Shown: positions 2,656 through 22,219 of the stretch, piece after piece
Layout of the letters: every line of letters starts with the position of its first letter
Numbering within the stretch: position 1 is the stretch's first letter
The notes under the pieces: model-generated
What the model was told of the DNA's origin: nothing
The model's database searches: none
Seen by the model: only the letters and a program-made list of their open reading frames with translations
IMG/VR virus record: IMGVR_UViG_3300009149_000320
Location: 1 to 22,219 of that record
From: a virus
DNA length: 22,219 nt
Direction: 5' to 3' (one strand)
Translations under genes and position numbers: made by a program

Positions 2656-2663
2656 TCTAAGTC

Positions 2664-2697
2664 TTATATAAAACCAGTTGACACTTTTTATATAAAA
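2664..2697 (+). promoter_or_regulatory. Two copies of TTATATAAAA before the head genes
   Basis: The 51-base gap between TerL and the next gene holds the 10-mer TTATATAAAA at 2664-2673 and again at 2688-2697, 24 bases apart, with TTGACA at 2678-2683 between them. No sigma70 -10 box sits at correct spacing after the TTGACA. The second copy runs into GAGG (2698-2701), the ribosome binding site of the next gene. An unusual phage promoter or regulator site is possible, but chance in an AT-rich gap is not excluded. Confidence 0.3.
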
Positions 2698-2706
2698 GAG
2701 GTTATC

Positions 2707-2904: not shown

Positions 2905-2908
2905 CACT

Positions 2909-4773: not shown

Positions 4774-4777
4774 AACG

Positions 4778-6035: not shown

Positions 6036-7055
6036 ATGGTCCAGGACTTCAAACTCTCCGAATTTGCCGGGGATTACCCAAACGTAACTCTAACCGAAGC
6101 GCATCTCGAAAAGATCATCTTTGATGCGCAACAAACCGACAGGCGTATCTGCAACCGGATGATGCAAAAATCACTTCCGGTTGGAACGAAACGCTTGATG
6201 ATCCCGATTTCCGAAAAGATTGACGGTACGACAGGAAGACGTGATACCATGTCAAGCGGTATCGTTTCCGCCGTCATGGGAACAACGGGGGCTGAAATTG
6301 TTTCGGCAAGCCGAGATGGAACCATTACTGATTCCGCTCGATACGATTTCACGCAAAACCAAGCACTCTCAACGAAGAAACGTCAACTTACCTCCGTCAC
6401 ATACCGTTTTGATCCGTTCACTCCAAAAGTCGATGCCATGTCTAACTGGGTCAACATCATGGAAATGATCCAGGTCAACGCAGATGCGCGATGGAATCGC
6501 TATCGAGATAGCGTTGCAAAAACGGCGCTCGGCGCTGATGCGACTGACTATCAAGACGATGTCGAGACGGGTGCTGAATCTGGAACGCCCGTACCTTTCC
6601 CGACGGCCAATATCATCAACGCCGATGGACAAGCGGAAGCAAGTGGTGATCTGCTCGAAGAAGCAATCTTCACATTCGAGAATTTGGATGTCGATATTCA
6701 ACTCGAACGGCCAATATTTTTGTGCGGTCCGATGGAGAAAAAGCAACTTCGGGAAAAGGAACATCTGATTAATAACGATTATGCGACCGGTCGTCCTTTG
6801 GATGGAAATCAACTTCCATCTGCGCTTGGATTCGATGTTGTGGTTTCGACAGGTCTTGATGTAAGTGGAGGCATTCGGACGTGTTTCGCATTTCTGCCGA
6901 GCGGAATGCTGTTTGCTGAATGGCAGGACATGGACGTGACCATGTCCATTCGACATGATCGCCAAGATGGTGTTCAGTTGGCAATGGTTCACGAATCGGG
7001 TTGCATTCGAGTCGATGACTCGAAAGTCCTGAAGATTTTTTGCAACGAAAATTAA
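6036..7055 (+). CDS. Major capsid protein
   Basis: This is the coat protein that builds the icosahedral head. The protein has 339 residues, close to the length of T7 gp10A-type coats, and follows the scaffold as in other podoviruses. It opens with VQDFKLSEFAGDYPNVTL and has a central helical part with MSNWVNIMEMIQVNADARW (about 134-152), a likely spine helix. The late strand-rich region LPSGMLFAEWQDMDVTMSI (about 286-304) and the ending MVHESGCIRVDDSKVLKIF look like the conserved end of HK97-fold coats. The fold is inferred from length, order and composition, not from a computed match. The ribosome binding site AAGGAGG is the strongest in the window, as expected for the most abundant product, and may be under hairpin control. 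Confidence 0.85.
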   Translation: MVQDFKLSEFAGDYPNVTLTEAHLEKIIFDAQQTDRRICNRMMQKSLPVGTKRLMIPISEKIDGTTGRRDTMSSGIVSAVMGTTGAEIVSASRDGTITDSARYDFTQNQALSTKKRQLTSVTYRFDPFTPKVDAMSNWVNIMEMIQVNADARWNRYRDSVAKTALGADATDYQDDVETGAESGTPVPFPTANIINADGQAEASGDLLEEAIFTFENLDVDIQLERPIFLCGPMEKKQLREKEHLINNDYATGRPLDGNQLPSALGFDVVVSTGLDVSGGIRTCFAFLPSGMLFAEWQDMDVTMSIRHDRQDGVQLAMVHESGCIRVDDSKVLKIFCNEN

Positions 7056-7089
7056 TCGGGCAACCCCGTAGAAAGGAAGGATCAAGATT

Positions 7090-7701
7090 ATGTGCATTAA
7101 ACGAATTCTAACAGTGTGTTTATTCGCTCTATTCTTTACCCCTGCTGTATCGTTTGCAACTGATTCAATGCCCTGGACCGAAAGCGTTCCCGACGATACC
7201 TATTACGCAGAAATTGGTATTGGAAATGCAACCGCAACGTCAACGTGGGCTGTCCAAATCCCCAAGGATGCAAGATGGGCGAGTATTTGGATCAAACCAG
7301 GGACACGTGCTCTAGTACAACAGATTGGCGCTAGCGGTGTGAATCTCATTAACGGAGCCATTGCCAACGCTACGTTTATGATTCAAATGTCTCCATTTGC
7401 TACTCCCGTCAATACTGCTACGCTCGGTGGCGCAACGGCGGTTATCGGGGGCGCAACTACTCCGTGGGCCGGATTTCTGATTCCGAGTCGGACTATTGTT
7501 TATGGGGCGTCTCCGCAGGTTGCCGCCAATCCGTCGAAATGGTCGGATAATACGGCTACTCCGTTCACAAATGGAATGTGGCCAGCGATTACGAACTACG
7601 GTCTGTATAACGTCGAAACTTACGCGAATCGTTGGTTCTGGATTATAAACGATCGTTCTGGTGTGTCCGTGGTAAACACCGTCATTGTACGGTTCAAGTA
7701 A
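7090..7701 (+). CDS. Secreted or surface protein with signal peptide, between capsid and tail genes
   Basis: The protein has 203 residues, with an AAGGAAGGA-type ribosome binding site about ten bases before the ATG. The N terminus is a textbook signal peptide: MCIKR, a hydrophobic core (ILTVCLFALFFTPAV), then SFA before TDS, so cleavage after residue 23 is likely. The mature part is beta-rich, with Gly, Ala, Thr and Asn (ATATSTWAVQIPKDARW, TLGGATAVIGGATTPWAG), as in head decoration or fibre-like domains. Most virion proteins stay in the cytoplasm, so a signal peptide here is odd. It could be a decoration protein with a signal-like hydrophobic start, or an exported protein acting on the host envelope. 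No family is recognised. Confidence 0.7.
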   Translation: MCIKRILTVCLFALFFTPAVSFATDSMPWTESVPDDTYYAEIGIGNATATSTWAVQIPKDARWASIWIKPGTRALVQQIGASGVNLINGAIANATFMIQMSPFATPVNTATLGGATAVIGGATTPWAGFLIPSRTIVYGASPQVAANPSKWSDNTATPFTNGMWPAITNYGLYNVETYANRWFWIINDRSGVSVVNTVIVRFK

Positions 7702-7711
7702 GGAGTGAATT

Positions 7712-8353
7712 ATGGCTACGGTCTTGGTTAACGAGCTTGCTCTGTTTGTCAACCCTGCCTTGGTTATGCTGGGGGCGGATACGCTGATCGCCCTCAGCGT
7801 ATCCGCTCCTGAAACCATTCAAAACCTCGCATCGATTACATTCTTGGGATTGGTTGAAGAGGTTTTGATGGAGGCGAACTGGGTCGATGTCCAGAAGCGA
7901 GACAGTTCTTTAACGGCGGATAGTAATCATGTCGCTGATGAATTCCCGTATGGATACGCATTGCCTTCGGACTTCGTTCATCTTGTCGGCGAACCCCGGT
8001 ATATCGGCGCGGGCGTGGTTCCCAAAGGCCAGAAGCATTGGCGAGTAAATGGCACAAAGTTGGAGACTTCTTGCCTGGGGCCTGACATCCTCTATGTCTA
8101 CAAAACGAGCGATGCGGTGGATGCAGGAACGGATGATGCGTATTACACGCTGATGAAAGCGCCGCTTCGAGCAGCGATTATTGCAAAATTGATGGCTGCT
8201 TGGGCTGCTCCGGTTGCAGGTCACGACCCGATCAAGTATGAGCAACTTTACCGTCTCAAGTTGAATTCGATGCGAACCTTGAACGCCAAGCAATCCCCAC
8301 CGGCACAAATGTCTCCAAACACCTTAATGAATATGAGGCAATTCCATGCCTAA
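7712..8353 (+). CDS. Tail tubular protein A, gp11-like (head-tail adaptor)
   Basis: This protein forms the ring between portal and nozzle in T7-like tails. It has 213 residues, similar to T7 gp11, and starts after AAGGAG (7700-7705). Typical features are an N-terminal helical block (LVEEVLMEANWVDVQKRDSS), the central FPYGYALPSDFVHLVGE segment (YxYPLPSDF in relatives), the short beta part around HWRVNGTKLET and DILYVYKT, and a helical C-terminal part with LRAAIIAKLMAAWAAPV. It overlaps the next gene by eight bases, which couples production of the two tube proteins. Position before the gp12-like gene supports the call strongly. Confidence 0.85.
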   Translation: MATVLVNELALFVNPALVMLGADTLIALSVSAPETIQNLASITFLGLVEEVLMEANWVDVQKRDSSLTADSNHVADEFPYGYALPSDFVHLVGEPRYIGAGVVPKGQKHWRVNGTKLETSCLGPDILYVYKTSDAVDAGTDDAYYTLMKAPLRAAIIAKLMAAWAAPVAGHDPIKYEQLYRLKLNSMRTLNAKQSPPAQMSPNTLMNMRQFHA

Positions 8354-11300
8354 ATTGAACCTCCATCCTGTGCTGAACAACTTCACGGGAGGTTTGATTT
8401 CTCCGGCGGTTCAGGCACGGGCTGAACTCGTGCCGGTTGACCACGGGTGCAAACAGGCGGAGAACGTTATCTTTTTGCCGCAAGGTGGGTTCGCCCGTCG
8501 AGGCGGGTTCATGTATGTTGGGGACTCAGCCCAGCCCACCGATTCAACAAAGAAAGTTCGTATCATCCCTTTTGCTTTCGCCGAAACCCCTACCCAATCC
8601 TATATCCTTGAGTTCAGCGCACTGAAGATGCGGGTTTATTGGGGTGGGGATAGGGTTCCGGTTCTGGATTCCAGTGTTGCTTCCAATACGGTCGTTTTTA
8701 AGGGTTCTGGACAAAACGACATGTATACCAATGGTGGAAGTTTTGCATATACCGGGACGTTTGCTTATACCTATAAAGTAAAGATAGACGGCACCGGAAC
8801 GCCTGACACCTATTCATGGTACAAAAACAATGTTTTGAAAGCGAGTGAGCAAAGTTGTTCGGATTCAGAGGTAGAACTTGAAGACGGCGTTTATATTGTC
8901 TTCGGTGAGACAACAGGCCATACGGTTGATGACTATTGGGTAATCACGTTTGATTCAGACCGCTACGAGTTGGCGACGGTTTATGATGAAGCCAGCATAC
9001 CGCTTCTGCGCTACGCTCAATCGGGCGATAGGCTCTATCTCGTGGATGGCACAAATGAACCGCAGGTATTAACCCGGTCCGGCCACAACAGTTGGGCGAT
9101 AGAAACAATTTCTATTTCGGGAGAGCCATTTTCGACAAAGAACAATTCTCGATATTCATTTTATCGTTACCATGACGTTTATCTCGGCAAACATGCAGCA
9201 GGTCATGTGATTGATGGACAAAATTCGCTTGAGAAATTCTACGATATATCTTCTGGCGAATCTGGAGGGCCAGAATATCTCGCTACAGGTAAATACACAA
9301 ATGACGATGCTGAAGGAATTTCCACAGAACGCGGCATATCCTTTATGTATACAGGTTACGGAGATAGTTATCCTGATGGCCCCGATGCGCTTGTTGATGC
9401 TCTTGCAAGCAGCTTTACGGGAGATTATCTATATAATATTTTTCTGAAAATGGATGGAACAATAAAGATACCGTATGCGGGTGATTGGTATTTTGCATTG
9501 AACGCTTCACGATATGCCGACTTTGCGTTCCAAAATGAAGATAATTTTCTATTGCAATTATACGGATATCGTCATTTACTGGTTCTTCCTGGTTATCGTG
9601 TGCAATATGAAAATTTCACAGATGAAAAAGGTACAAATCAAAAAAGAATATCCACAAAACAAACGAATTTGGGAGCGCATGAATATTCGTATTGGGGCCG
9701 CATGATGGCTCATAATACTGTTGGGTGGGGGTATGATCTTGCTTGGAGACTTGGTGGCGATATTGTGTTGGGTGGCGATCCAGATGTCGCACCTTCCGGG
9801 AAATTAAGTTTATATCAATTACGTGAATACAACACTTATGTCAAGCACGTATCAAACGATAATGAAAACTGGTATGGAAACCGGTGTTTAGAAGTCCAGA
9901 TATTTATGGATTCAGACACAACTTGGGGATGGAAATATAAAGAAATAACAAGTTTCGATTCAAGCGGACCTGTTTATAGTGGCGAATATGTAACTATTAA
10001 TACTGAATATGGCGTATTTACAAATTATCAACTCAACGATCCGATTGGGGGTGCGTCTGGTCCATTTGAGGGTGACGGCCAAATTGCCGATATCGATTGG
10101 GATGATTCCGATCCGGAAGTGATGGGACTTGCTGATGGGATGACATGGACATTTCGTGTTGGATTTCTTCCTATTCCTGGATCAGCGTTTATCAATACTG
10201 ATTTAACGGAAGAAACAACTTATCCGAAAGTCGTGACGATCAGCGATAACCGCCTTTGGTTTTTTAACTCTTCTGGACGGCCAAGCGCAGCGTGGGCCAG
10301 CAAGGTTGACCAGTTTACGAACTTTGTTGAAGATGCGGTTACACTAAAAGATGACGATGCTCTCTCGTTCACATTGAGTTCTAACCAGATCGATCCGATC
10401 CGATGGGCGAAGCCTGGGCGTCAAATGATTATCGGGACGGCATCAATGGAATACACGATCAAATGGCCGAATGGATTCCCCTCACCGCTCGAAGTCCCCG
10501 AAGTAAAGCCCAACACCTATTACGGCTCAAAGTTCGTTGACCCCGCTCAGGCGGCGAATATTATCGTCTTTGCAGAGAAATCCGGTCTCCGGTTGCGGTC
10601 TTATGGATATCGATTCGACATTGATGGGTATTCGGGAACCGATGACAGCGTTCTTGCGTATGAGGAAATATCCGCCGGAATCAAAGAACTTGCCTATCAA
10701 CAGGCCGGGGATATTGGATATATCAGCAGTCAAGACGGGGTCTATGCCGAATTTTCTGGCCTTGTTCTTCCGATCACAAATGCCCTTTGGATTATTACCG
10801 ACACCGGGAAACTCAAAGGAATTACACTCGAACCCGAACACAAGGTTCTGGCGTGGCATGAACACACGGATGATGCCACCGTGCCAGCCGTATTTGAATC
10901 AGTGGCGACTATCCCAGGGGCCACCGGCGATGAGGTTTGGGTTGTCGCTTTCAGGGGTGGCAACCGATATATTGAGGTTCTGGATAATACCGCTCCGATG
11001 GATGGATGGGATCGAAACCTGGATGCAGGAAACCAACCCTCGGATGCTTCAGATTTTACTGGAACGGTCGAAACTATTCCGTTTGAGATTATCGAAGGAA
11101 AAGATTCAACGATCGCACACAAAAAGCGTTGGGTTTATGTGGATGCCGACGTTTTGGCTGCTCAGAATCTCGGCGTTGCACGTGGAACAGTGGATTATGA
11201 CGCAAAAAAGCAAATATTCTCCACCATGACAAGCCCCGGCGTTGCCAGAAAAATACTCTTTGGATGGGATAAAATAGCAACACTTGTCTTGAAGGCTCCA

Positions 11301-11369
11301 GGGACTTCCGGGATTGCTTATCCAACGATTGTGAGAGCTATTCAGGGAAGGATTCAGATTAATGAGTAA
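8346..11369 (+). CDS. Tail tubular protein B, gp12-like (tail nozzle)
   Basis: The nozzle is the distal tail tube through which DNA leaves. The protein has 1007 residues, longer than T7 gp12 (about 790), so it carries extra beta-rich insertions (about residues 110-210 and 290-560). The start NNFTGGLISPAVQARAEL, followed by GCKQAENVIFLPQGGFARR, matches the conserved opening of nozzle proteins (F..GE.SP....R.....Y..G...l.N....P.GG..RRpG). A later NRLWFFNSSGRPSAAWASK and a WAKPGRQMIIGTASMEYTI stretch (about 637-705) are also typical of this family. GAGG seven bases upstream supports ATG 8346. The insertions could hold host-binding functions, since no tail fibre gene is seen nearby. Confidence 0.88.
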   Translation: MPKLNLHPVLNNFTGGLISPAVQARAELVPVDHGCKQAENVIFLPQGGFARRGGFMYVGDSAQPTDSTKKVRIIPFAFAETPTQSYILEFSALKMRVYWGGDRVPVLDSSVASNTVVFKGSGQNDMYTNGGSFAYTGTFAYTYKVKIDGTGTPDTYSWYKNNVLKASEQSCSDSEVELEDGVYIVFGETTGHTVDDYWVITFDSDRYELATVYDEASIPLLRYAQSGDRLYLVDGTNEPQVLTRSGHNSWAIETISISGEPFSTKNNSRYSFYRYHDVYLGKHAAGHVIDGQNSLEKFYDISSGESGGPEYLATGKYTNDDAEGISTERGISFMYTGYGDSYPDGPDALVDALASSFTGDYLYNIFLKMDGTIKIPYAGDWYFALNASRYADFAFQNEDNFLLQLYGYRHLLVLPGYRVQYENFTDEKGTNQKRISTKQTNLGAHEYSYWGRMMAHNTVGWGYDLAWRLGGDIVLGGDPDVAPSGKLSLYQLREYNTYVKHVSNDNENWYGNRCLEVQIFMDSDTTWGWKYKEITSFDSSGPVYSGEYVTINTEYGVFTNYQLNDPIGGASGPFEGDGQIADIDWDDSDPEVMGLADGMTWTFRVGFLPIPGSAFINTDLTEETTYPKVVTISDNRLWFFNSSGRPSAAWASKVDQFTNFVEDAVTLKDDDALSFTLSSNQIDPIRWAKPGRQMIIGTASMEYTIKWPNGFPSPLEVPEVKPNTYYGSKFVDPAQAANIIVFAEKSGLRLRSYGYRFDIDGYSGTDDSVLAYEEISAGIKELAYQQAGDIGYISSQDGVYAEFSGLVLPITNALWIITDTGKLKGITLEPEHKVLAWHEHTDDATVPAVFESVATIPGATGDEVWVVAFRGGNRYIEVLDNTAPMDGWDRNLDAGNQPSDASDFTGTVETIPFEIIEGKDSTIAHKKRWVYVDADVLAAQNLGVARGTVDYDAKKQIFSTMTSPGVARKILFGWDKIATLVLKAPGTSGIAYPTIVRAIQGRIQINE

Positions 11370-11796
11370 ACTGACCCTCCATCAAGTGGAAGATCGTGGC
11401 GAAATTCGGATGATTGATTACCGAGAAAGTGATCGATACGCAATAGAAGACATGGAACAGGTCTTTGATAATGATGGGAAACTCTGGATATACGAATTTG
11501 AAGGAACGCCCATGGCCATTGGCGGAGTGTTGCCGGTCAGGGAAGGTGTCGGGCATTTCGTCTTTGCTTGTTCTGAATCGGCTTTTGACCGGCCATTCGA
11601 TTTGATCCATGACATGAAGAGGATTATTCACGCTTGCGAGAGGACTTATTCTCTTTTTCGGTTACAGTTTATGGTTGAAGAAGGATTTGAAGCACGACTT
11701 CGGTTTGCCGATTTTCTTGGATTCAAGGTAGAGGGAATTCATCCGAAGTCAGGGCCGAATCAGACGACATGGATGTCATTCGGCAAGGTGGGATGA
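11362..11796 (+). CDS. gp13-like internal virion protein with acetyltransferase-like fold
   Basis: The protein has 144 residues and overlaps the end of the nozzle gene by eight bases; AAGGA lies nine bases before the ATG. Length and position match T7 gp13, a virion assembly or ejection factor whose sequence resembles GNAT acetyltransferases. The GNAT-like features here are the strand LWIYEFEGTPMAIGGVLPV (about 42-60), the helix with RPFDLIHDMKRIIHACE, and the ending FADFLGFKVEGIHPKSG, like the A...y..lGF pattern of GNAT proteins. The usual acetyl-CoA loop (Q/RxxGxG/A) is not evident, so catalytic activity is doubtful and a structural role is likelier. Confidence 0.7.
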   Translation: MSKLTLHQVEDRGEIRMIDYRESDRYAIEDMEQVFDNDGKLWIYEFEGTPMAIGGVLPVREGVGHFVFACSESAFDRPFDLIHDMKRIIHACERTYSLFRLQFMVEEGFEARLRFADFLGFKVEGIHPKSGPNQTTWMSFGKVG

Positions 11797-11797
11797 A

Positions 11798-12235
11798 ATG
11801 GGATTTCTCGCTCCTTTAGGGATCGCTTTAGCAGCTGCAGGAACCGTCGTTCAAGGCGTTTCACAGTATCAGCAAGGGAAATACAACGCCGCCGTCGCAA
11901 GCCAACAAGCAAAACAAATTATGATTGCTCGCGGGATCGATGCCGAACAGCAACGATTCTCGTTCGAACGGATGCTTGGGCGTAACCGGGCGATAACAGG
12001 GGCAAGCGGTATCACGATGGAAGGTTCTCCGATCATCGCGGAGATGTCGAATATCTTCCAGTTTGAGAAAGATCAATTAATCCAGGATTACAATGCTCAG
12101 ATTCAGGCCGGGCAAGCGAAGTCTCAGGCTAAGATGTCAAAGGCAATGGGAACGGCTGCTTTGGGAACCTCCTTATTGAATTCCGGGGCGTTCGCTGCTG
12201 GGAGGATGTCCTTACTGAGTAATCCGGCTAAGTAA
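11798..12235 (+). CDS. gp14-like internal virion (ejection) protein
   Basis: The protein has 145 residues and starts one base after the preceding stop, with GGTGGGA as ribosome binding site. The hydrophobic, alanine-rich start (FLAPLGIALAAAGTVVQGV) is followed by a long helical section (QYQQGKYNAAVASQQAKQI, then FEKDQLIQDYNAQIQAGQAKSQAK) and a small hydrophobic C-terminal part. This composition and order match T7 gp14 and its many relatives, which leave the capsid first and form a channel in the outer membrane during DNA ejection. The GASGITMEGSPIIAEM segment is a widespread pattern in these small core proteins. Function is by family and position; membrane insertion is consistent with the hydrophobic start. 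Confidence 0.8.
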   Translation: MGFLAPLGIALAAAGTVVQGVSQYQQGKYNAAVASQQAKQIMIARGIDAEQQRFSFERMLGRNRAITGASGITMEGSPIIAEMSNIFQFEKDQLIQDYNAQIQAGQAKSQAKMSKAMGTAALGTSLLNSGAFAAGRMSLLSNPAK

Positions 12236-12255
12236 TCCGGCAAAGGAAGAGTAGA

Positions 12256-14796
12256 ATGAGACTTCAGCATTTCGTTTCAGGAACGGCGGCAACCCGCGAA
12301 GTTCCGAATGCCATACAGCAATCTCCATTCCCGACGGTTGCCCCCGGTTTAGCCAGCCTTGGCAGTGATCTAATTCAACTGGCAGAAAAGGAACAGCGCA
12401 TTCTTCAGAATGCCGAGATTAACCAAGCAAAAAACATAGTCGATGTCGGTTTGAAACAGGCGGACCTCGCGTTTGATAGCGGCGAACTCGATATTCCCGG
12501 ATTAACCGAAGAATATAAAGCGGTTTTCTCTAATGCAAACAAAGCAATTAAATCACGCGGGGCGCAGAATGTAATCGGCCCACGCCTGGAAGCATCTCAA
12601 AAACTTGCCGAATTGCGTATCAAAGGTCTCATGCGGTTGGAGGTCGTAAACTTTGCAGATAACCAACATCAAGAACGCCTTCAAATTTTAGAGGATCAAT
12701 ACATAACTGCCGGGACTCAGGAAGAAAGACGCGCAATCCAAGCGCAGATGGAAGCCGCCGATCAAAAGATGGTTGACGATTCGGTCTATTCCGAGAAGGA
12801 CCAAACAAAACGTATTGATGAATGGAAGGATCACGCCACGGTGGCGGCGGTAGAACGGGCAATTCTTGACGATCCCCACGAGGCTTATAGAGCAATAAAA
12901 AAAGACGAGTATGATCTTGATGAAGAATTAAAAACAAAACTTCTTGTATCAGCAAAAAAATATATAAATACACAAGAAAGAGAACAGGCGATGCTATTGG
13001 GTGAGATGATCGAACAAAACCCATTTGGCGAATACAACATTGATAATAATAGGAGCATCAACGAGACCCAAAAACTTTCATTGAAAAATTATCAAAAGAG
13101 AGCGCAAGATGCACAACAAGAAATAATGCGAATCAAGGCGGATCGTGATGAGCGCAAAGTCATCATGCAGCAACAACGTGAGATTAGTAATGATTCAAGA
13201 GAATTTTATAATAAAGTAGAGTCAGGAAACCTCACACCACTTGATGTGCAAAATCATATATCGAAAATGAACCGTGCATGGGAACAAGGGACTATTACTG
13301 ACGCGGGGGCGCAACGAGAGATAGAATCTGCTAAACAAACGCTTCTTGGTATCCATGTCAATAAAATGATAGGTCTCATTGGATCGGACGGGGACTTGTC
13401 ATTAGCAAAAGATTATTTTAAAAACAACGTGTCAACAGACGAGACGCTTGGACCGGATGAAAAGCAGGACGCGCAAGACGCTTTTGCAAAGATGGAAAGT
13501 ATGACCGGAACGGGCCAAGACCTTAATCTCCGCCGTAGACTCGCTATCGCTACTATTCTGGCAAAAACACAGGGACTGCCGGATGTTCAGTCTATTGTTC
13601 CCGAAATTATAGACCGATTGCAGAACTCAACAAATCCTGCGTCTATTATGTCTGCGTTCAATGGTCTTGTAACGGTAATGGGTGAAGAGGATTTAGCCTA
13701 TCAAAAGTATTATGGACAGACATATAAAGTCGATCCAAAGGGTGCGGGGGATGACAATAAAGCAAGAAAGAAGGCATCCGATTTAGAATTGGATTATATT
13801 ATCAAAGAAAGAATGAAGGACAAAGGAGAAATCCAAAACGAAGATTATATAAAAGAAACCGCTCGAATGATTGTCGATCATGCCTTTGAAAAAAATTATG
13901 TCGCGGAACCCACACGCGCTTTAATCCGCGCCGGGAATGGGATGGATGATCCAGAAACAACCCGGCAGGTACTTGAATTGCTCTTTGACGCGAGAACAAA
14001 CCGTCCAACAGTTGCGGCCCAAATACCGGATGTAGATTACAATAACCTTCTTCCGCTACTCATTAAAATGCAACAAGGAAAAATCGATCTAAAAACAACG
14101 AACGGTCCACAATTAAAGGGGTTGATGGATGCAAGTCTTGAACAAAGCCAGGCCATCGATATCCCAGGGCGAACAAACCAATGGCAATTAACGGAGAGAG
14201 ACAGAATAACATCATTGGGAAGAAAGTCCGATATCGACAATGAATCTGATTCTTCTTTCGGTTGGTTACTCAATAAAGCACGAACCCTTTATCTTTATGG
14301 TGGAATAACCAGCATGGATGATGCGGAAGATGAAGCCGTAAGGCAATTCAATGTTGCTTATGGTAAATCGACCGTTGGAGATAAACGAAAGATGTTGTTC
14401 CCACCAACTTATTTCAATCCCGAATACGATCAAGCAACGGGGAATAAGGAGTTGAGAGGCTATTTGGACAATATCCGATCTTATGATGATACCAATCCAT
14501 ACAAGGGGAAACGATTCATTATTGAAAGCGGACCCCAAACGGAAGCGACTTCTTTCTATACGGTATTTGTGGATACCGATGGAGACGGTTCGTATGAAAC
14601 GGCAGCAATGACTGACATGATGCAAATGGTTCATTGGACGCCATTCGATCTTGGAGGAACCCCATCCATGATCGACGAATTAGACCGTTCAATACTGGAT
14701 AAGGTGCAAGAAAAAATCAAGGAAGTCAGAAAGCAAAAGGCCGCAAGACAGGAAAGAGATAAATCCGAATCGTTGTTTGGAGTGTTCCCAGGTTAA
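12256..14796 (+). CDS. gp15-like internal virion (ejection) protein
   Basis: The protein has 846 residues, somewhat longer than T7 gp15 (747), with AAAGGA well placed before ATG 12256. It is mainly helical and charged throughout, with no membrane span, as in gp15, which forms the periplasmic tunnel of the ejection complex. The opening FPTVAPGLASLGSDLIQLAEK, with VDVGLKQADLAFDSG soon after, is typical of gp15-like proteins. A central section rich in Glu, Gln and Arg (about 200-330) is coiled-coil-like, and a C-terminal beta-containing part (FIIESGPQTEATSFYTVFVD, about 755-774) precedes a lysine-rich tail. No lytic transglycosylase motif is visible. It sits between the gp14-like and gp16-like genes in the standard order. 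Confidence 0.8.
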   Translation: MRLQHFVSGTAATREVPNAIQQSPFPTVAPGLASLGSDLIQLAEKEQRILQNAEINQAKNIVDVGLKQADLAFDSGELDIPGLTEEYKAVFSNANKAIKSRGAQNVIGPRLEASQKLAELRIKGLMRLEVVNFADNQHQERLQILEDQYITAGTQEERRAIQAQMEAADQKMVDDSVYSEKDQTKRIDEWKDHATVAAVERAILDDPHEAYRAIKKDEYDLDEELKTKLLVSAKKYINTQEREQAMLLGEMIEQNPFGEYNIDNNRSINETQKLSLKNYQKRAQDAQQEIMRIKADRDERKVIMQQQREISNDSREFYNKVESGNLTPLDVQNHISKMNRAWEQGTITDAGAQREIESAKQTLLGIHVNKMIGLIGSDGDLSLAKDYFKNNVSTDETLGPDEKQDAQDAFAKMESMTGTGQDLNLRRRLAIATILAKTQGLPDVQSIVPEIIDRLQNSTNPASIMSAFNGLVTVMGEEDLAYQKYYGQTYKVDPKGAGDDNKARKKASDLELDYIIKERMKDKGEIQNEDYIKETARMIVDHAFEKNYVAEPTRALIRAGNGMDDPETTRQVLELLFDARTNRPTVAAQIPDVDYNNLLPLLIKMQQGKIDLKTTNGPQLKGLMDASLEQSQAIDIPGRTNQWQLTERDRITSLGRKSDIDNESDSSFGWLLNKARTLYLYGGITSMDDAEDEAVRQFNVAYGKSTVGDKRKMLFPPTYFNPEYDQATGNKELRGYLDNIRSYDDTNPYKGKRFIIESGPQTEATSFYTVFVDTDGDGSYETAAMTDMMQMVHWTPFDLGGTPSMIDELDRSILDKVQEKIKEVRKQKAARQERDKSESLFGVFPG

Positions 14797-14797
14797 G

Positions 14798-17779
14798 ATG
14801 CCTATTTACACAGATACCGATACAATACGGGCGATCCGGCGTTTACGGCCCACGATGGGGGCATCGAAACAGTTGACAGCCATCACTGCCCCTGAAGTAG
14901 CATCTTCTGGAGAGTTCTTTTCCGCAGTATTCCGCGCCACGTGGATGGATGATATCAAAGGTTTGGCCTCTATTTTCACCGCACGTAAACCCATTGATTA
15001 TGACTACAACGTGGTCGGTGATATCCCAGAAGATATGGCCCCGTTTTCTGAAGAATACTCGGATTCTTCAAACAAAGAAGAAACCGATTTTATAACGGCA
15101 CGACTTCGTCAGCAGATGGAGGATAACCTGGATATCGAAAGTTGGGGATGGACTGGAACTCCGATACATTTGGCTGCTGAATTTACAAGTCCTGTTTGGC
15201 TAGCCGCGTTTTACGCACTCCCCGTCAAAATGTTTGCAAGTGCTGGAGTAGAGGCAAAGAGATTCGTAGTATTTGCAGACATGATGAAAACTTATAAAGC
15301 CGCAAGAGCAGGGGAAACGATTGTTGCCGGTGCTCAAGTGGAGAAACTATTTGAAGAAGCAAAAGGAATCGGAGAAATCCTGTCTTCTATTGGAGCGAAA
15401 GAACCAATCAAATATGGTTGGATGAAAGGCTTCGCCGAAGGGGCTGCCAGAATGGGGTTCGCCTCCGCAGTCGATGAAGCGGTTGTCCAGCAAGCCCCGA
15501 ATCTTGAAACGTTTGGAGACTCTCTGAGAAATATTGCGGTACAATCAGTCTTCGGCGGACTTCTTCATGCCGGCATTGGAAGATACAACGTAAAGAATGT
15601 TGAAGTTTTTAGAAAAAAAGCACTCGCCGAATTCGACGCATACGAAAAAGACTTGAAGGGTTTTAAAGATTATGTCATGGGAGAATTCTACAAATCTCCG
15701 GCAGGATTTCAGCGATGGGAAGGAACACGCTGGACCCCGGCGGATGAATATCCGCAACCTTTCAAAAAACTTGGCGGAACTGATATCTATGGGAAGCCAG
15801 TAGGTCAAACACTGGAAGGAAAAATCGGACCCGCCGTTGATGATTTTGCAGCCGAAGCAACAAATTTCAAAGATAAAATTTATGAGGCAATTTCAAAAGG
15901 TGAAGTCACTGGAAAGCAAGCGAAAGAGTTATTTAAGCATCATGGAATCAAAGATTATGATAAAAGTAAATTAAGAAAACCAAAACCGGGGAAACCAGTT
16001 ACTGTTAAAGACATCGATGCAGTAATGAAAGACAGTTTTCACGCCTTAACCCCGCAAGAATTTCAAGACATCTCTCTGGGTATGGAATTTGACGGCGTTA
16101 CTAGGCCGTTGGCTTATTATCGTGGATTGATCGATGATCTGGTCGCCGATCCTTCCAATACAATGTTCCGAACACCAGGAGGCGAAATCCAGCGACCTTT
16201 TTTTGTCACACCGGAAGGGACCGCTTCGGAGACAATGCCTCCAGTTCCCACCCAATATCCGGCTTCCCCGCCAAAGGGCGAAGGTCCGGTCACACCGGAA
16301 GGGACCGCTTCGGAGACAATGCCTCCAGTTCCCACCCAATATCCGGCTTCCCCGCCAAAGGGCGAAGGTCCGTTTCGTCACGTCCGCTTGAGCGATGGAA
16401 CGGAAATATTTGGAGCGAAGGGACAAACCTATCCAGAAATCATTAAATCCCTGGAACATATTGGCGTTGATCTTGATGAGATTGAAAGTCCATTGAAGAA
16501 GGTTATCAAACAGGTGGCGCCGAAACCAGTCATTACCAAAGTACCAGAAGCACCGAAAGCCCCGGCCAAGAAACCTGCGATCACAAGCATAAGCACTCTA
16601 AATGAGGTTAATGATGCTTATCCAACTGCTCCCAATAAGGTTGATGGTAGAATTGTACGTTCAGAAATACCGAATCAATCTTCCATTTATTCAACCATTG
16701 ACAACCCCGAAATCCTGTCAGGAGTACGTGTTGTTCCGATGTCTGAATTTCAACTCACTGGGCGTCACTATTCTTCCGAAGGTAGTAAAAGAATAAAAGA
16801 ACTTGCAGAGGAAATTAAAGAAACCAATGAAATCAACCCATTGATAGTTGTCGTTGACGAGGAAGGCCCATATATTCTCGAAGGTGCAACTAGAGCAGAG
16901 GCACTATTTAGACTTGGTGCAACATCGTTCCCTGCACAAGTTGTGATTGACAACGATGTTTCAAATATTCCATCAGAAAATCCCGTAACAAAAGCCCCGG
17001 AGGTAGTCCCGGCGGAACCAAGTAAAGAATTAATCAAAAACATTGAAAACGAGATCGAAAAAACAAAAAGCCTCATGGAAGAGTTCGACGAATCCGCGAA
17101 GAAGAAAATGGATAAGTTGAAGCCTGCAAGAGAGCAACTTCGCCCCGCGCAAATGCAACGGGTGAAAGACTTGAGAGCGTTCGAGTTCAAGATAGACAAC
17201 ATGAAAGAAGCCAAAAGGGAACTCGAATTTGGGAATAGATTTCTTGCGAAGACTCTTCTTGACAGGATTGGGATGAAGCATGATATAAAGATTGAACCCG
17301 GAGAAACCGTTACCGCCTACAGGGGATCAAGGGGCGATTATGAGGCAATTTCCACGCATCCATATTACGTAGGGGCGACTTGGTTTACGGACACATTCAA
17401 GGGGGCGCATTCTTATGCGGGCGAAGAAGGCGGCAAAGTAACAACAGCAGAACTTAACATCCATAAAATATTTGACCAAGCAAACCCAAAGCATCTCGAT
17501 CAAGTAATGCCGGAGGTTAGACAGGCTTTCAAGAATTTACAGAAACAGGGACACGTCACGTCACAAGAATTTGAAACATTGCTCGAAAGGATTCGATTAG
17601 GAAAGCACTACCTTTTAACGCAAGAGCCTAATGTCATAAAGAAACTCAGAGAACTTGGATTTGACTCGATCCTCAACAGGGAGATTGGGTGGGACATAGG
17701 TGTTCTTTCCAAGGAAAATATCAAAGTAACGAAGCAATCTACGAAGGATACAGGTAGGGCCGAACCGAAAGCGAAATAA
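14798..17779 (+). CDS. gp16-like ejection protein with ParB-like and ADP-ribosyltransferase-like domains
   Basis: The protein has 993 residues from ATG 14798, one base after the gp15-like stop; a TTG 21 bases earlier is an unlikely start. Residues 1-260 contain hydrophobic or amphipathic stretches (HLAAEFTSPVWLAAFYALPV near 125-145; DSLRNIAVQSVFGGLLHAGI near 241-260), like N-terminal parts of large gp16-type proteins. Residues 470-525 are two identical 28-residue proline-rich repeats. Residues about 640-725 resemble a ParB/sulfiredoxin-like domain (INPLIVVVDEEGPYILEGATR, R699, then EALFRLG). Residues about 834-980 resemble an ADP-ribosyltransferase: YRG at 841-843, WFT at 862-864, AHSYA at 870-874, LGFDSIL from 953. 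Phage polyvalent proteins combine such domains and enter the host with the DNA. Domain calls are by eye; activity is inferred. Confidence 0.7.
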   Translation: MPIYTDTDTIRAIRRLRPTMGASKQLTAITAPEVASSGEFFSAVFRATWMDDIKGLASIFTARKPIDYDYNVVGDIPEDMAPFSEEYSDSSNKEETDFITARLRQQMEDNLDIESWGWTGTPIHLAAEFTSPVWLAAFYALPVKMFASAGVEAKRFVVFADMMKTYKAARAGETIVAGAQVEKLFEEAKGIGEILSSIGAKEPIKYGWMKGFAEGAARMGFASAVDEAVVQQAPNLETFGDSLRNIAVQSVFGGLLHAGIGRYNVKNVEVFRKKALAEFDAYEKDLKGFKDYVMGEFYKSPAGFQRWEGTRWTPADEYPQPFKKLGGTDIYGKPVGQTLEGKIGPAVDDFAAEATNFKDKIYEAISKGEVTGKQAKELFKHHGIKDYDKSKLRKPKPGKPVTVKDIDAVMKDSFHALTPQEFQDISLGMEFDGVTRPLAYYRGLIDDLVADPSNTMFRTPGGEIQRPFFVTPEGTASETMPPVPTQYPASPPKGEGPVTPEGTASETMPPVPTQYPASPPKGEGPFRHVRLSDGTEIFGAKGQTYPEIIKSLEHIGVDLDEIESPLKKVIKQVAPKPVITKVPEAPKAPAKKPAITSISTLNEVNDAYPTAPNKVDGRIVRSEIPNQSSIYSTIDNPEILSGVRVVPMSEFQLTGRHYSSEGSKRIKELAEEIKETNEINPLIVVVDEEGPYILEGATRAEALFRLGATSFPAQVVIDNDVSNIPSENPVTKAPEVVPAEPSKELIKNIENEIEKTKSLMEEFDESAKKKMDKLKPAREQLRPAQMQRVKDLRAFEFKIDNMKEAKRELEFGNRFLAKTLLDRIGMKHDIKIEPGETVTAYRGSRGDYEAISTHPYYVGATWFTDTFKGAHSYAGEEGGKVTTAELNIHKIFDQANPKHLDQVMPEVRQAFKNLQKQGHVTSQEFETLLERIRLGKHYLLTQEPNVIKKLRELGFDSILNREIGWDIGVLSKENIKVTKQSTKDTGRAEPKAK
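16205..16372 (+). repeat. Perfect tandem duplication of 84 bases inside the ejection protein gene
   Basis: Bases 16205-16288 are repeated without a single difference at 16289-16372. The unit is 28 codons, so the frame is kept, and it encodes a proline-rich linker containing PPVPTQYPASPPKGEGP. The unit also holds small inverted repeats, such as CGCC(AAAG)GGCG. It separates the N-terminal part from the ParB-like region, so it acts as a spacer. Identity at the DNA level points to a recent duplication or to ongoing length variation. Confidence 0.95.
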
Positions 17780-17781
17780 TT

Positions 17782-20484
17782 ATGCCGAAAATTCCGATCA
17801 AAGGGCTGAGCAAAGAACTCGCTTCTAAACTCAGCGAACTCGGACTTGATGAAATCTCCGGGAATCTTTCCAGGTTGCGGTCAGCCGCTTCTGCGAAGGG
17901 GTTCCCTCTACCTGAATCTGTCCATATCCAATCGACTGAAGGCACTGGGCGGATGAAAATACCCAAAATAAAGGAAACAAAAAAACCCGCCATTGAAAAA
18001 ATAACTGGTCTTACCTCGCCAGTCTCTAAAATCCTCGAACCCACAAACCCGGTACAAAAAGGTGTATTGAAATTTACTACAAAAACATTGGCGGGAATGC
18101 ACTGGTCCCCCGATGTCTTCTTTTATGATCGGTGGGATGGATTTCCAAAAGAAGTACAGGCGGCAGTCAAAAACTTGTCCGAAATTGCATTTTATAAAAC
18201 AACCGAAGCGGGTGGGGCTGATATAAAACCTTCCGTAGAAAGTCTTGCTAACTATAAAATTCCTGGGCTGGAAGAATCCGCGTTGAAGGGATTTACGAAT
18301 TCTTATTTTCATTATCAAAAACGCATGGCCGGTGAGTTGCCGGAAGCAGACCCGAAATTTCCGTTGATGCAAACTGCTGTACAAAATGCTCAAGCATACA
18401 AAGGAAAACTCACGGGAGAAGAAAAAGGACTCTCTAAATATGGGTTTGCCGAACTTGTTTCAAAGAAAATGCGCCGGTTCACTTCGACAACTGATTTTGA
18501 TCCAGAAGTGAAGGCGATAATAGAACACTTACGAAAAAATATATACGACCCAATTTTGGAGAAGGCTGTTAAAGTCGGTCTTGTCGATAAAAAGGTCTTA
18601 GAGAACAAAAAATTTGTCGGTAATTTTGTTCCACAGATTTGGGATCAAATAGAAATAAGACGCAAAAGCAACGATTACATTGATTTCTTGATAAGAAACC
18701 ACGCGGCGAATACAAAGAAATCCTTTGAGGCATTAACGCCCGAAGAAGCAGAACAATCTTTTGCTGACGCCACAAAAACAAAAAACAGAATCTTATCCAG
18801 CCATGATGGATTCCATCGAGATTATGAGTTGTCTCAGGGGAAGAAGAAACACGCCAAAACGAGGGAAGTTATTATTCACGATAGCATGTTGGAAGAAGCC
18901 GAAGAAAAATATTTGGTCAACGATATCAGAATAATAACTACGAAATATATCAAGGCAATGATTCCGCAGACAGAATTTATGGAACGGTTTGGAACATTAA
19001 ATTTAGACAAGCACATGGATGCGATCGATCTCGCCTATCAGAAAAAAATAAAGGAATCACCCCCTGGTAAACAATACGCTATTGAAACCGAAAGAGTAAT
19101 AACGAAAAAATATATTCAGCATTCCTTTGATAAGATTATGGGAACCGCCGGGATTCCAGACGATCCACATTCCTTATTGATGCTTGTCAATAAAGCGTTG
19201 CTGACGGGGGCGGCTGTCACAAAACTAGGTGGAGTGGTTATTACTTCATTCGCTGACGAATGTCTCCAGGTTGCTCATAATGGCTTACGTCCTTACGCTC
19301 GGTTTATTAAAGATTATGTAAGACACCCGGTTGCAATGAGTAAGAACCGGAAGGAACTTTCCGATCAAGCAAATATCGCTCAATTCTACTTATCTCAAAT
19401 GTATTCCCAGTATGCAAGCACTGAGACAACATCCTCTTTCGTTCATAGATTTCGTCGTCCAACGAGTATGGCAGAAATGAAAGGTTCGGCGCGGGATGCT
19501 GTCGAAATAGCCATTGATAAGGTTGGACGTATCGGGGGCCTTATGACGCTCCTGGGACACTGGGATCATTTCAACCAAACAAATGTCGCCATAACATCCG
19601 CCAATTCATTGATCCGCCATGCGCTCCAAAAAGAGTTAGGTGTTCCATTAGAAGATAAGGAGGTAGCGTGGCTTGAGCATATATTCGTCAATGCGGAAAG
19701 TGACTTGGAACACGTTGCCGATATGTATAGGAAATATGGGGATAAATCCGACACCGGACTCATGTTCCCAAACTTTGCTTTGTGGGAAGAGCACCCGGAA
19801 TTAGTCGAACGAATCCTTGTTGGACTAAACCGGATTGCAAAAGATACTGTGAATTATGCTTCTTCGCTTAGTAAGCCCCCCTGGTGGGATCATCCGGCAG
19901 CAAAAGTTCTAACGCATTTTATGAATTTTCCCTGGACCTTCCCGACGAAAGTATTGATTCCGGCACTTCAGAATCCAGCAACAAGCCATATTCTTCCCGC
20001 CTTATTGTTTGGTACGGTGTTGGGGGCAACGATTTATACGATCAAAGAAGTCCTAAAAGGAAATGATATCAAAGATGTTGTGAAAGACAAAAATAAACTT
20101 CTCCTTGAAGGCGTACTGCGGAGTGGGTTTCTATTTATGTTAGAAAGACCAAATAATCTTGTTACCAATCTTACTGGTGGGGACGTTGGATTGCATAATC
20201 TGTTCGGGACAGATGTACCGGCTGGATATTCCGGTAGAGGATATCAGGCCCCAAACAATTATGATCCGATGTGGGCTATTTCTAATATATTAGGGCCTTC
20301 GGTTGGAACCCTGAACGATAGCCTGAAGGCAACCAATGGGATGTATACTTATTTTAACGATCCATCGAAATTCAAACCTTCCCAGGCACGGGCAATGCGC
20401 CGATTGATGTTCATGCAAAATCACTTCCTGCTCGGAAAAATGTTCGACAAGATGGAAGAAGAAATGGTTGATAGCGCAAGATGA
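17782..20484 (+). CDS. gp16-like internal virion protein, C-terminal type
   Basis: The protein has 900 residues and starts two bases after the previous stop with only a weak ribosome binding site, so reinitiation is likely. It is mostly helical. A hydrophobic part with LLTGAAVTKLGGVVITSFAD (about 472-491) and a membrane-like stretch HILPALLFGTVLGATIYTI (about 736-754) stand out, as do PPWWDHPAAKVLTHFMNFPW (about 698-717) and a C terminus with MRRLMFMQNHFLLGKMFD. These features match the C-terminal half of large gp16-type ejection proteins (A.ltn.aD followed by a G...R region), which span the inner membrane and pull in the genome. Together with the upstream gene it would supply the full gp16 role (T7 gp16 has 1318 residues). 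No peptidoglycan-cutting domain is visible in either. Confidence 0.75.
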   Translation: MPKIPIKGLSKELASKLSELGLDEISGNLSRLRSAASAKGFPLPESVHIQSTEGTGRMKIPKIKETKKPAIEKITGLTSPVSKILEPTNPVQKGVLKFTTKTLAGMHWSPDVFFYDRWDGFPKEVQAAVKNLSEIAFYKTTEAGGADIKPSVESLANYKIPGLEESALKGFTNSYFHYQKRMAGELPEADPKFPLMQTAVQNAQAYKGKLTGEEKGLSKYGFAELVSKKMRRFTSTTDFDPEVKAIIEHLRKNIYDPILEKAVKVGLVDKKVLENKKFVGNFVPQIWDQIEIRRKSNDYIDFLIRNHAANTKKSFEALTPEEAEQSFADATKTKNRILSSHDGFHRDYELSQGKKKHAKTREVIIHDSMLEEAEEKYLVNDIRIITTKYIKAMIPQTEFMERFGTLNLDKHMDAIDLAYQKKIKESPPGKQYAIETERVITKKYIQHSFDKIMGTAGIPDDPHSLLMLVNKALLTGAAVTKLGGVVITSFADECLQVAHNGLRPYARFIKDYVRHPVAMSKNRKELSDQANIAQFYLSQMYSQYASTETTSSFVHRFRRPTSMAEMKGSARDAVEIAIDKVGRIGGLMTLLGHWDHFNQTNVAITSANSLIRHALQKELGVPLEDKEVAWLEHIFVNAESDLEHVADMYRKYGDKSDTGLMFPNFALWEEHPELVERILVGLNRIAKDTVNYASSLSKPPWWDHPAAKVLTHFMNFPWTFPTKVLIPALQNPATSHILPALLFGTVLGATIYTIKEVLKGNDIKDVVKDKNKLLLEGVLRSGFLFMLERPNNLVTNLTGGDVGLHNLFGTDVPAGYSGRGYQAPNNYDPMWAISNILGPSVGTLNDSLKATNGMYTYFNDPSKFKPSQARAMRRLMFMQNHFLLGKMFDKMEEEMVDSAR

Positions 20485-21173
20485 TGTATGGATCGTGTAA
20501 CTCTCAGATATTCGGCGTCCATGAGCAAGCGTCCGGCTTCGGGGTTGTCGGAGATACCCTCACCTATTACGGGGGGATCGATGAGTGGGCGAAAGCCGCC
20601 GACTCAACCAACGTCCGTATTATGCGAACCAGGCAAGGCGGGGAACAATGGGGATGGAATTACCCTGATGGTGTGATCGATCCCACAATAAGGCTCATCT
20701 GTGATTCAGTGAATGTTCCCCAATTCGTTTGGGAAGGAGAATCTTACCCGGACAAAGACCGCCGTGCATACGCCCCGCTCATAACGACTGACGACCGTGG
20801 CGCGTCCATAATCCCCGCCGGTGGGCACGCTGTAACTATGACCCCAATCGGAAAGACGATTCTTGAATCTCTCGAAACTGATACGATAGCCGCCTCGATT
20901 CCCTCCTGGACGGCAGATACAGTATGGACGAATGTTACCGATACATCTGGATTACTAAAGTTTATCTTCATGCAGGAATGCTCACGGGTTGGGTTGAAAC
21001 CGATTCCGAATCTCGCAGCAATCATGGCCGGGGTGAAAACCCCGAACGCCTACATCCATATTTGGCTGAAATCTGCAAGTCGAATTTTATATGCTCATTA
21101 CGGTCAGACATCTATCCCATTGATTTTGGGAAAGTTAGAAATCGACTCCGACGGTATTGTTTCCCTCGCGTAA
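20481..21173 (+). CDS. Unknown protein closing the late operon
   Basis: The protein has 230 residues and begins within the end of the gp16-like gene (ATGA overlap); adjacent ATG codons at 20481 and 20484 are both possible. It has no signal peptide or membrane span. The first half carries aromatic and charged stretches (TLTYYGGIDEWAKAADSTN, RQGGEQWGWNYPDGVIDPT) and the second is beta-rich (TSIPLILGKLEIDSDGIVSL). I recognise no family. Its place after the ejection proteins, where many podoviruses encode tail fibre, tailspike or attachment proteins, makes a virion role likely. It is too short for a complete fibre, so it could be an adaptor or minor virion component. A gap with a new promoter follows. 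Confidence 0.7.
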   Translation: MMYGSCNSQIFGVHEQASGFGVVGDTLTYYGGIDEWAKAADSTNVRIMRTRQGGEQWGWNYPDGVIDPTIRLICDSVNVPQFVWEGESYPDKDRRAYAPLITTDDRGASIIPAGGHAVTMTPIGKTILESLETDTIAASIPSWTADTVWTNVTDTSGLLKFIFMQECSRVGLKPIPNLAAIMAGVKTPNAYIHIWLKSASRILYAHYGQTSIPLILGKLEIDSDGIVSLA

Positions 21174-21191
21174 AATAAATCAAAAAAATAT

Positions 21192-21220
21192 TTGACAAAC
21201 CGTATTTTTTATGCGATACT
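21192..21220 (+). promoter_or_regulatory. Sigma70-type promoter for the small distal operon
   Basis: A perfect -35 TTGACA (21192-21197) is followed after exactly 17 bases by GATACT (21215-21220, four of six matches to TATAAT). Transcription would start near 21226-21228, leaving a short leader with GAGAGG (21238-21243) seven bases before the ATG at 21251. The tetramer ATAC recurs at 21216, 21229 and 21233, over the -10 box and start, and could be part of an operator for the first gene product. That last point is an inference. Confidence 0.75.
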
Positions 21221-21250
21221 ATCCGTACATACATACTGAGAGGAAAAAAA

Positions 21251-21451
21251 ATGAAGGGTAAATTAAAACTTCCGCCGTTGAAACCTTCGATCCAAAAACA
21301 TTTCTATCTTCAGCAGTCAACCGTTGAGAAAATGGTTGACGCAGTCTACAAACATGATATTACGCAAGTTTATTTCATTGAGGCACTTATCAGTCATTTC
21401 GATGCGTTGCCAAAGGATAAACAACACGTAATTCTTTATGGGAGTGAATAA
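21251..21451 (+). CDS. Small ribbon-helix-helix-like protein
   Basis: The protein has 66 residues and is the first gene after a good sigma70 promoter, with GAGAGG as ribosome binding site. A basic N terminus (KGKLKLPPLKPSIQK) leads into HFYLQQSTVEKMVDAVYKH (about 17-35) and DITQVYFIEALISHF (about 36-50). This fits strand-helix-turn-helix as in Arc/CopG/ParD-type repressors (xxFYLPEELLEKL..........S..ELIREAL). Such proteins bind short repeated operators as dimers and often regulate their own promoter, which suits the ATAC repeats there. The usual G or hydroxyl residue in the turn is replaced (HDITQ), so the call is tentative. The stop overlaps the next start (TAATG). Confidence 0.6.
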   Translation: MKGKLKLPPLKPSIQKHFYLQQSTVEKMVDAVYKHDITQVYFIEALISHFDALPKDKQHVILYGSE

Positions 21452-21627
21452 TGGGAAAGATAGTTGAGAGAATAATCGTAACCTGTGATGAATGTCCGTA
21501 TCACAGTTGGGTATTGCTAAGGAAAGGGGGGGGATACCATAAATGTTGGTATTTGAAGGAGAGAAAAATAGAATCCCCCAAGGAAGACGTATTCCCGTCG
21601 TTCTGTCCGTTAAAGGATTCTGAATAA
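21451..21627 (+). CDS. 58-residue Cys/His protein, possible zinc-binding
   Basis: Start ATG 21451 overlaps the previous stop (TAATG) and has GGGAG (21440-21444) at six bases. The product holds C12-x2-C15 with H18 (CDECPYHSW), then H30 and C32 (YHKCWY), and C52 in FPSFCPL. CxxC plus a later Cys and a final CP is a common layout of small zinc-binding phage proteins whose roles are mostly unknown. It may bind nucleic acid or protein. The operon neighbours, a ribbon-helix-helix-like and an OB-fold-like protein, suit a DNA-related role. The run of eight Gs at 21526-21533 is a likely spot for a frameshift error. Confidence 0.7.
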   Translation: MGKIVERIIVTCDECPYHSWVLLRKGGGYHKCWYLKERKIESPKEDVFPSFCPLKDSE

Positions 21628-21992
21628 TGAATATAGGAATCGTTTCCGGCTCCATTATCTACCTTGGGAAGTTGTCTTATAAAGAAGGCATCGCTTTCCT
21701 GGAAATTATTGTGCGGACGGATTCACCGCACCCCGGCAGAGGGCAATCGTTGAGAGTTACCCTATCCGGGAAATTCGCCGCCACTGCGGATATGTGGGTA
21801 AAAAAAGACGATTGGGTTTGTCTTGCCGGGATGTATGAATTCCCGAATAAAGTACAACGAGGCATTCTTCACGTTGGAGATGATATTCCTTTTTCAAGCA
21901 TCAAATCAAGCCCAAACAGGAGGCCATTAAAGCGCTGTTTTACTCGATTTATGGATGAACTCGGAGACACCAATTATGAATTTTATAGATAA
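21627..21992 (+). CDS. Small OB-fold-like (SSB-like) protein
   Basis: The protein has 121 residues; ATG 21627 overlaps the previous stop (TAATG) and AAAGGA lies nine bases upstream. The strand pattern resembles a single-stranded DNA binding OB fold: a first strand GIVSGSIIYLGKLSYKEG, then AFLEIIVRTD, a loop, SLRVTLSGKFAATADMWVK, then DWVCLAGMYEF. This is like the W-x-x-V...GK.AE....L.KG..V.V.G order of SSB proteins. It lacks the long acidic tail of bacterial SSB and ends in a basic stretch (SSPNRRPLKRCFTRFMDEL). A replication or recombination helper is the likely role; RNA binding is an alternative. The structured RNA begins at once after its stop codon, which raises the possibility of a link. 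Confidence 0.55.
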   Translation: MNIGIVSGSIIYLGKLSYKEGIAFLEIIVRTDSPHPGRGQSLRVTLSGKFAATADMWVKKDDWVCLAGMYEFPNKVQRGILHVGDDIPFSSIKSSPNRRPLKRCFTRFMDELGDTNYEFYR

Positions 21993-22140
21993 TGGAGCGG
22001 TCGAAGGCATCATTAGACGGAAGCAAGATGTGGCTGGCTAGCCGATGTAGGTAATAAGCCACTGAGATTTCATCTTGAGCCTTCGACCGATCGACCGCTC
22101 CAAAAAGCCGCCATGAGGTGCTAGGTAAGCACCTGAGAGT
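21993..22140 (+). ncRNA. Strongly structured RNA element, family not identified
   Basis: Directly after a stop codon, CGGTCGAAGGC (21998-22008) pairs over 11 bases with GCCTTCGACCG (22079-22089); GGAG (21994-21997) continues the stem with CTCC (22098-22101) across an eight-base bulge. Alternatively GGAGCGGTC pairs with GACCGCTCC at 22093-22101. Nested inside are CAAGATG (22024-22030) with CATCTTG (22071-22077), TGGCT (22031-22035) with AGCCA (22057-22061), and a palindrome GGCTAGCC (22036-22043). A separate hairpin AGGTGCT(AGGTA)AGCACCT follows at 22116-22134. Nested perfect stems of this kind are rare by chance. It is probably transcribed from the promoter near 21200. It may continue beyond the window. 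No U-run, so not a simple terminator. Confidence 0.55.
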
Positions 22141-22219
22141 AGGACACCAGTGACGTGGGGGGCAGGACACCAGTGACGTGGGGGGCAGGACACCAGTGAC
22201 GTGGGGGGCAGGACACCAG
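22141..22219 (+). repeat. 23-base tandem repeat at the right edge
   Basis: The unit AGGACACCAG-TGACGTGGGG-GGC is repeated exactly at 22141, 22164 and 22187, with a partial fourth copy from 22210 to the window end. The first copy is joined seamlessly to the hairpin region before it. There are no spacers, so it is not a CRISPR array. It may be a real variable repeat, part of a larger RNA or terminal structure, or the place where an assembly stopped in a repeat. Confidence 0.9.

Follow-up and report, generated by a model that had tools for sequence, protein, structure and literature searches.

A long bulged hairpin and a 23-nt tandem array at the end of a small gene cluster in a podovirus contig

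Results and Discussion

Source contig and phage relatives

The window analysed here is the whole 22,219-base stretch of a virus record, classed as a linear contig in IMG/VR. A podovirus gene set was identified in it, comprising a terminase large subunit (PF03237, E 7.5e-15), a portal protein (PF12236, E 7.8e-65), a capsid gene matching PF19821 (E 3.6e-19) and internal virion proteins matched by phrog_342. At an E-value of 0.001 or lower, the 900-aa virion protein matched 58 annotated records. The closest were Vibrio phages of about 32 kb with 22-25% identity, together with small numbers of coliphages and of Klebsiella, Alteromonas and Microcystis phages, and a single uncultured podovirus. Used alone as query, this protein found no relative in the viral contigs. 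An alignment of it with five distant proteins led to 80 loci with identities of at most 25%, most of which were, by name, sequenced isolates.

Searches with the terminase and capsid proteins returned one contig only, L002 (9.7 kb), which was 100% identical in both proteins. L002 overlaps the window from position 1 to about 8480 and adds about 1.25 kb beyond its left end; the end of this added part (1-1254 of L002) reads, by eye, like a tail-fibre gene. L002 had no match to 21200-22219 and does not cover the hairpin region described below. No close relative of the phage other than L002 was found in the collections searched.

Among the structural genes, the virion protein encoded at 14783-17779 contains an internal-virion-protein-like stretch, a ParB-like stretch (residues 667-719, E 4e-5) and a weak match, below the cut-off, to ADP-ribosyltransferases in polyvalent proteins (residues 840-964, E 0.0038). 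Judged from these matches, the product may be a polyvalent protein that is injected and acts on the host bacterium. An exact 84-bp tandem duplication is present inside the same gene at 16205-16372.

Small genes preceding the hairpin

The last gene on the structural side lies at 20481-21173. It is followed by a promoter-like site and three small open reading frames:

21192 to 21220, + strand: sigma-70-like promoter, TTGACA-17-GATACT with TG before the -10 element, 10 of 12 matches
21251 to 21451, + strand: ORF of 66 aa, no family, codon score 0.308
21451 to 21627, + strand: Cys-rich ORF of 58 aa, its ATG overlapping the preceding stop codon (TAATG), codon score -0.039
21627 to 21992, + strand: ORF of 121 aa, its ATG likewise overlapping the preceding stop codon (TAATG), codon score 0.16, its last base directly preceding the hairpin

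The region holds five promoter-like sites where shuffles have 3.0 on average, and the site at 21192-21220 is therefore to be taken as a consensus match only. Given its codon score, coding by the 58-aa ORF is weakly supported. A fourth TAATG, at 21990, opens an ORF of only 20 codons (21992-22054) with no clear ribosome site ahead of it.

The 121-aa gene had been described as OB-fold-like in an earlier, sequence-only reading of this DNA. This description was not confirmed. A single-sequence model of the protein was all-beta in the first 83 residues, at low confidence (mean pLDDT 51.9), and a structural search with it gave a best E of 0.12, to unrelated folds. The protein had no Pfam, PHROG or NCBIfam match and no homologue in the viral contigs; among phage records matches were seen only at E of about 2. 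The single-stranded DNA-binding protein family SSB (PF00436) gave no match in the window at E 10, the control being detected in 12 of 14 genomes, and no SSB match was seen in 26 further records, made up of distant relatives and hits that had been set aside.

Architecture of the main hairpin

As the sequence-only reading had stated, the element starts at the first base after a stop codon: the TAA of gene 21627-21992 occupies 21990-21992, and the hairpin begins at 21993. Its parts are as follows:

21993 to 22008, + strand: 5' arm of the main hairpin, 16 nt, TGGAGCGGTCGAAGGC
22030 to 22035 and 22057 to 22062, + strand: inner stem, GTGGCT/AGCCAC, predicted probability 0.98-1.0
22079 to 22102, + strand: 3' arm of the main hairpin, carrying an 8-nt tandem duplication, TCGACCGA TCGACCGC, at 22083-22098

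The two arms form a 16-bp helix that is interrupted by an 8-nt bulge caused by the repeated TCGACCG. The 5' arm TGGAGCGGTCGAAGGC pairs base for base with GCCTTCGACC plus GCTCCA, with the 8-nt duplication in between. The 16 pairs are Watson-Crick throughout, and perfect pairing is seen in the outer stem, TGGAGCGGTCGA/TCGACCGCTCCA, between 21993-22004 and 22091-22102. The minimum-energy structure of the hairpin contains 35 pairs, two of them G-U. A slip of the outer stem by eight bases had been proposed from the occurrence of GACCG at both 22085 and 22093. Both copies are present, and the slip amounts to an 8-nt bulge that is movable along the stem between registers of nearly equal energy: the two extremes differ by 0.5 kcal/mol (-46.4 versus -45.9 kcal/mol), and the pair probabilities are divided between them.

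Three nested perfect stems had also been claimed. The outer and inner stems were recovered in the prediction. For the middle stem, 22024-22030 and 22071-22077 are perfectly complementary over 7 nt, but G22030 is also needed by the inner stem, and the predicted probability of the middle stem was 0.01 or less. The energy model replaced it by three short helices, and forcing it gave -42.3 versus -46.4 kcal/mol, a penalty of about 4 kcal/mol. By this prediction, the three perfect stems do not form together.

The bases after the outer stem are AAAAAGCC, and the + strand has no U-run at this point, in agreement with the sequence-only reading. No intrinsic terminator site was found in 20400-22219 by a scan covering loops of 3-8 nt; the main stem, with its long loop, was judged from the sequence. 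Terminator-like sites in 2600-22219 numbered 22 against 20.6 in shuffles, which is no excess. A 13-nt perfect inverted repeat was also observed, joining 21649-21661, at the start of the 121-aa gene, to 21986-21998, which spans the stop codon and the first hairpin bases. It could compete with the hairpin, or it could be due to chance.

Strength of the fold

The fold of 21993-22105 was clearly better than expected by chance (z -4.71, with none of 200 shuffles as good), and the longer stretch 21985-22160 gave z -3.97 against shuffles. The hairpin was equally distinct when folded as a DNA strand (z -4.57), so the fold gives no preference for an RNA function. The window has three perfect stems of at least 12 bp with a loop of at most 110, where 60 shuffles gave 0.28 on average and 3 at most. 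In distant phages the same class of stem was seen four times in 195,298 bases, or 0.46 per 22 kb, as counted in 11 stretches picked from 92 loci to limit redundancy; the loop was at least 40 in one of the four.

When 5528 windows of 112 nt were ranked by folding energy, the hairpin came tenth and was the third distinct locus. The loci that folded more strongly, at 7.7 kb and 16.2 kb (minus strand), each lie within coding genes. After adjustment for GC the hairpin ranked eighth, once more as the third locus. The fold of the hairpin is real in the sense of non-random, yet it is unexceptional within its own contig. The sequence-only reading had found here more structure than a terminator needs; this is a fair description, but coding genes of the contig fold equally or more strongly, and strength alone therefore does not show a functional RNA.

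The strongest fold of the contig was observed at 7705-7880, at the start of gene 7712-8353. This gene also contains a 13-bp perfect stem (7775-7787/7794-7806), and a 12-bp perfect stem with a 6-nt loop is located at 2029-2058 within the terminase gene.

Second hairpin and tandem array

Two further features were found between the main hairpin and the contig end:

22116 to 22122 and 22128 to 22134, + strand: separate hairpin, AGGTGCT-AGGTA-AGCACCT, -12.0 kcal/mol for 22110-22140
22141 to 22219, no strand assigned: perfect tandem array of the G-rich 23-nt unit AGGACACCAGTGACGTGGGGGGC, with 3.4 copies up to the point where the contig stops

The separate hairpin had been noted in the sequence-only reading and is present as described. 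As a whole, 22103-22219 folded no better than shuffles (z 0.16). The perfect array had been overlooked. Its 16-nt core occurs in three exact copies, against 0.09 expected in shuffles even when up to three mismatches were allowed, and a fourth match to the core, with three mismatches, lies away from the array at 3563. The GC content of the tail jumps to 63%, a level attained by 0.2% of 117-nt windows. The contig ends inside the array, and the right-hand context is therefore lost. The array, at least 79 bases long, is itself a likely cause of the contig break.

Coding test across the element

A coding frame across the element, which had been named beforehand as an observation that would speak against a structured RNA, was looked for by codon scoring and was not seen. 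Codon frequencies were taken from 14 of the 17 listed genes and applied to pieces of 75 codons. Pieces of genes scored 0.271 bits per codon (sd 0.095), compared with -0.043 (sd 0.106) for pieces read out of frame. Over 21993-22219 the six frames scored from -0.294 to 0.071, with stop codons in five of the six, and an open frame on the minus strand (21949-22218) scored -0.22 bits per codon. A coding gene over the hairpin was ruled out, as the six frames and the open minus-strand frame score like non-coding sequence.

Searches for known families and homologues

GOLLD and ROOL are non-coding, structured RNAs of several hundred bases, ornate in their folding, and some of them are linked to phages. 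The element resembles them in being non-coding and structured, but differs in having no covariance-model match. A search of the whole window against Rfam at E up to 5 gave a single unrelated chance match (10585-10646). A search of 21980-22219 at E up to 10 gave three chance matches, none of them to GOLLD, ROOL or HEARO. All these chance matches lay far below the thresholds of their families. The sequence-only reading had likewise been unable to match the element to GOLLD, ROOL or HEARO, and membership in them is unsupported. To a HEARO or IscB-type guide RNA the likeness extends to a structured, intergenic element and nothing further, and the difference lies in the missing Rfam match and in a window with no nuclease gene, its right side being lost. 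For GOLLD and ROOL, see PMC12286853.

No tRNA or tmRNA was found in the window. 5S rRNA was tested because TGAGAGTAGGACACC (22133-22147) resembles the bacterial 5S rRNA loop E strand; RF00001 gave no match at E 10 in the window, the control being detected in 12 of 14 genomes, and this candidate was rejected. Retrons, IS110 bridge RNAs, type III toxin-antitoxin repeats and integron attC sites were also considered, and no defining gene for any of them was seen in the window.

Three DNA patterns of the element gave no true match in 2.9 million viral contigs, and two gave none in bacterial and archaeal genomes (genome_contigs). Exact patterns would miss diverged copies, and these negatives are therefore absence of evidence. 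Five hits to the stem pattern (L003-L007) were rejected by eye as unrelated and apparently coding, with no further similarity, and one more (L094) was likewise unrelated by eye and apparently coding. A DNA search in phages, with the tail included, gave nothing believable; a plasmid search gave five weak matches (best E 0.7); and E. coli genomes gave no match. In 92 loci, none of the proteins of 121, 58, 66 and 230 aa had a convincing match, and neither did the element (best E 0.84 and 3.2). Across the collections searched, neither the element nor the 121-aa gene before it had a homologue.

Interpretation of the locus

The hairpin is tentatively interpreted, with somewhat less than an even chance of being right, as a transcript-level element at the close of a small operon, probably an early one, in an uncultured podovirus, where it acts as a processing site or a 3'-end protector. 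Transcription from the promoter at 21192-21220 would run through the three overlapping genes before reaching the hairpin. The helix, with 16 Watson-Crick and about ten interrupted pairs, could serve as an RNase III-type substrate or as a block to 3' exonucleases. Cleavage would separate, or protection would shield, the operon mRNA while transcription continues; it would not end at the hairpin because no U-run follows.

The interpretation starts from features seen directly, namely the hairpin, its position after the stop codon, the missing U-run, the non-coding stretch and the overlapping gene starts. RNase III sites call for a double-stranded stem of about two turns, and the predicted 16 bp plus interrupted pairs would provide one. 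That the hairpin is transcribed, and that the mRNA is cut or protected there, we infer from these features, and the genes are presumed to be early from their place after the structural genes and from the promoter. In T7-like phages, RNase III processing hairpins lie between the early genes. The present hairpin is like these in its position at the end of small genes, its long irregular stem and the lack of a U-run; it differs in that the window has no T7-like RNA polymerase and in that the hairpin is known from sequence alone, and no sequence relation to the T7 hairpins is expected. A hairpin that processes or protects the transcript is the simplest account, and it agrees with the position, the extent of the perfect helix and the lack of a U-run. 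Against it stand the equally strong folds within coding genes of the contig, and the adjacent 23-nt array is left unexplained.

The array is better accounted for by the main rival, which we consider rather unlikely: a control locus acting at the DNA level, such as a replication origin or a site of packaging or concatemer processing. The 23-bp direct repeats, about two helix turns in length, would bind an initiator or a similar protein, and the hairpin, whose fold is equally distinct as a DNA strand, would work as single-stranded or cruciform DNA. Plasmid origins also carry iterons, and near-identical direct repeats, the mark of an iteron-type origin, are present here as 3.4 perfect copies. The three exact core copies and the jump in GC point in the same direction. 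The locus shares with the iteron arrays of phages and plasmids exact direct repeats about two helix turns apart beside a hairpin. It differs from them in that the window shows no initiator gene and no A+T-rich stretch next to the array, which is cut by the contig end. The window contains no replication or initiator gene, and for this rival the initiator gene is lacking because the contig breaks at the array. The neighbouring gene is also not a recognisable SSB, and a distantly related phage (L008) has no array of this kind. In lambdoid phages, arrays of O-protein iterons are located at the origin, according to PMC7466680.

Somewhat less probable still is that the inverted repeat and the array are chance products or by-products with no function, or that the tail was misjoined at the contig end. 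The other perfect stems of at least 12 bp, in the terminase gene and in gene 7712-8353, agree with this, as do the odd composition of the tail and the position of the junction, which has no independent coverage since the sole overlapping contig ends at about 8480. However, the stem and its bulge exceed what shuffles produce, and the rarity of such stems in distant phages argues against chance.

It is quite improbable that the element is a non-coding structured RNA from a family not yet described, or the start of one running past the contig end. The sequence-only reading had proposed a structured RNA without a family, which is a prediction from the fold of one sequence. Such an RNA would be consistent with the z-score of -4.71, the start directly after the stop codon, the two nearly equal registers and the lack of an Rfam match at the thresholds used; against it, the exact patterns found no second example in the viral contigs or in genome_contigs, and the downstream part folds like shuffled sequence. 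Equally a long shot is a joint role of the hairpin, with the 8-nt bulge that shifts along its stem, and the G-rich 23-nt array as a two-part control element in a phage lineage not yet described. If this were true, a switch of RNA or single-stranded DNA with two nearly equal registers would be coupled to the array, and the pair would represent either a structured RNA family or a type of phage origin that is new.

Most simply, the element is an ordinary hairpin that ends a gene cluster, and nothing shows a new kind of RNA. It also serves as a caution that a strong fold of a single sequence is by itself no sign of a functional RNA, given that coding genes of the same contig fold equally strongly. 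At present its worth is that of one more strong intergenic phage hairpin, real but unremarkable. Interest would come mainly with extension of the contig. Compensatory changes in the same stem among relatives would make it a new RNA family, and an origin function of the array, if demonstrated, would likewise give the element weight.
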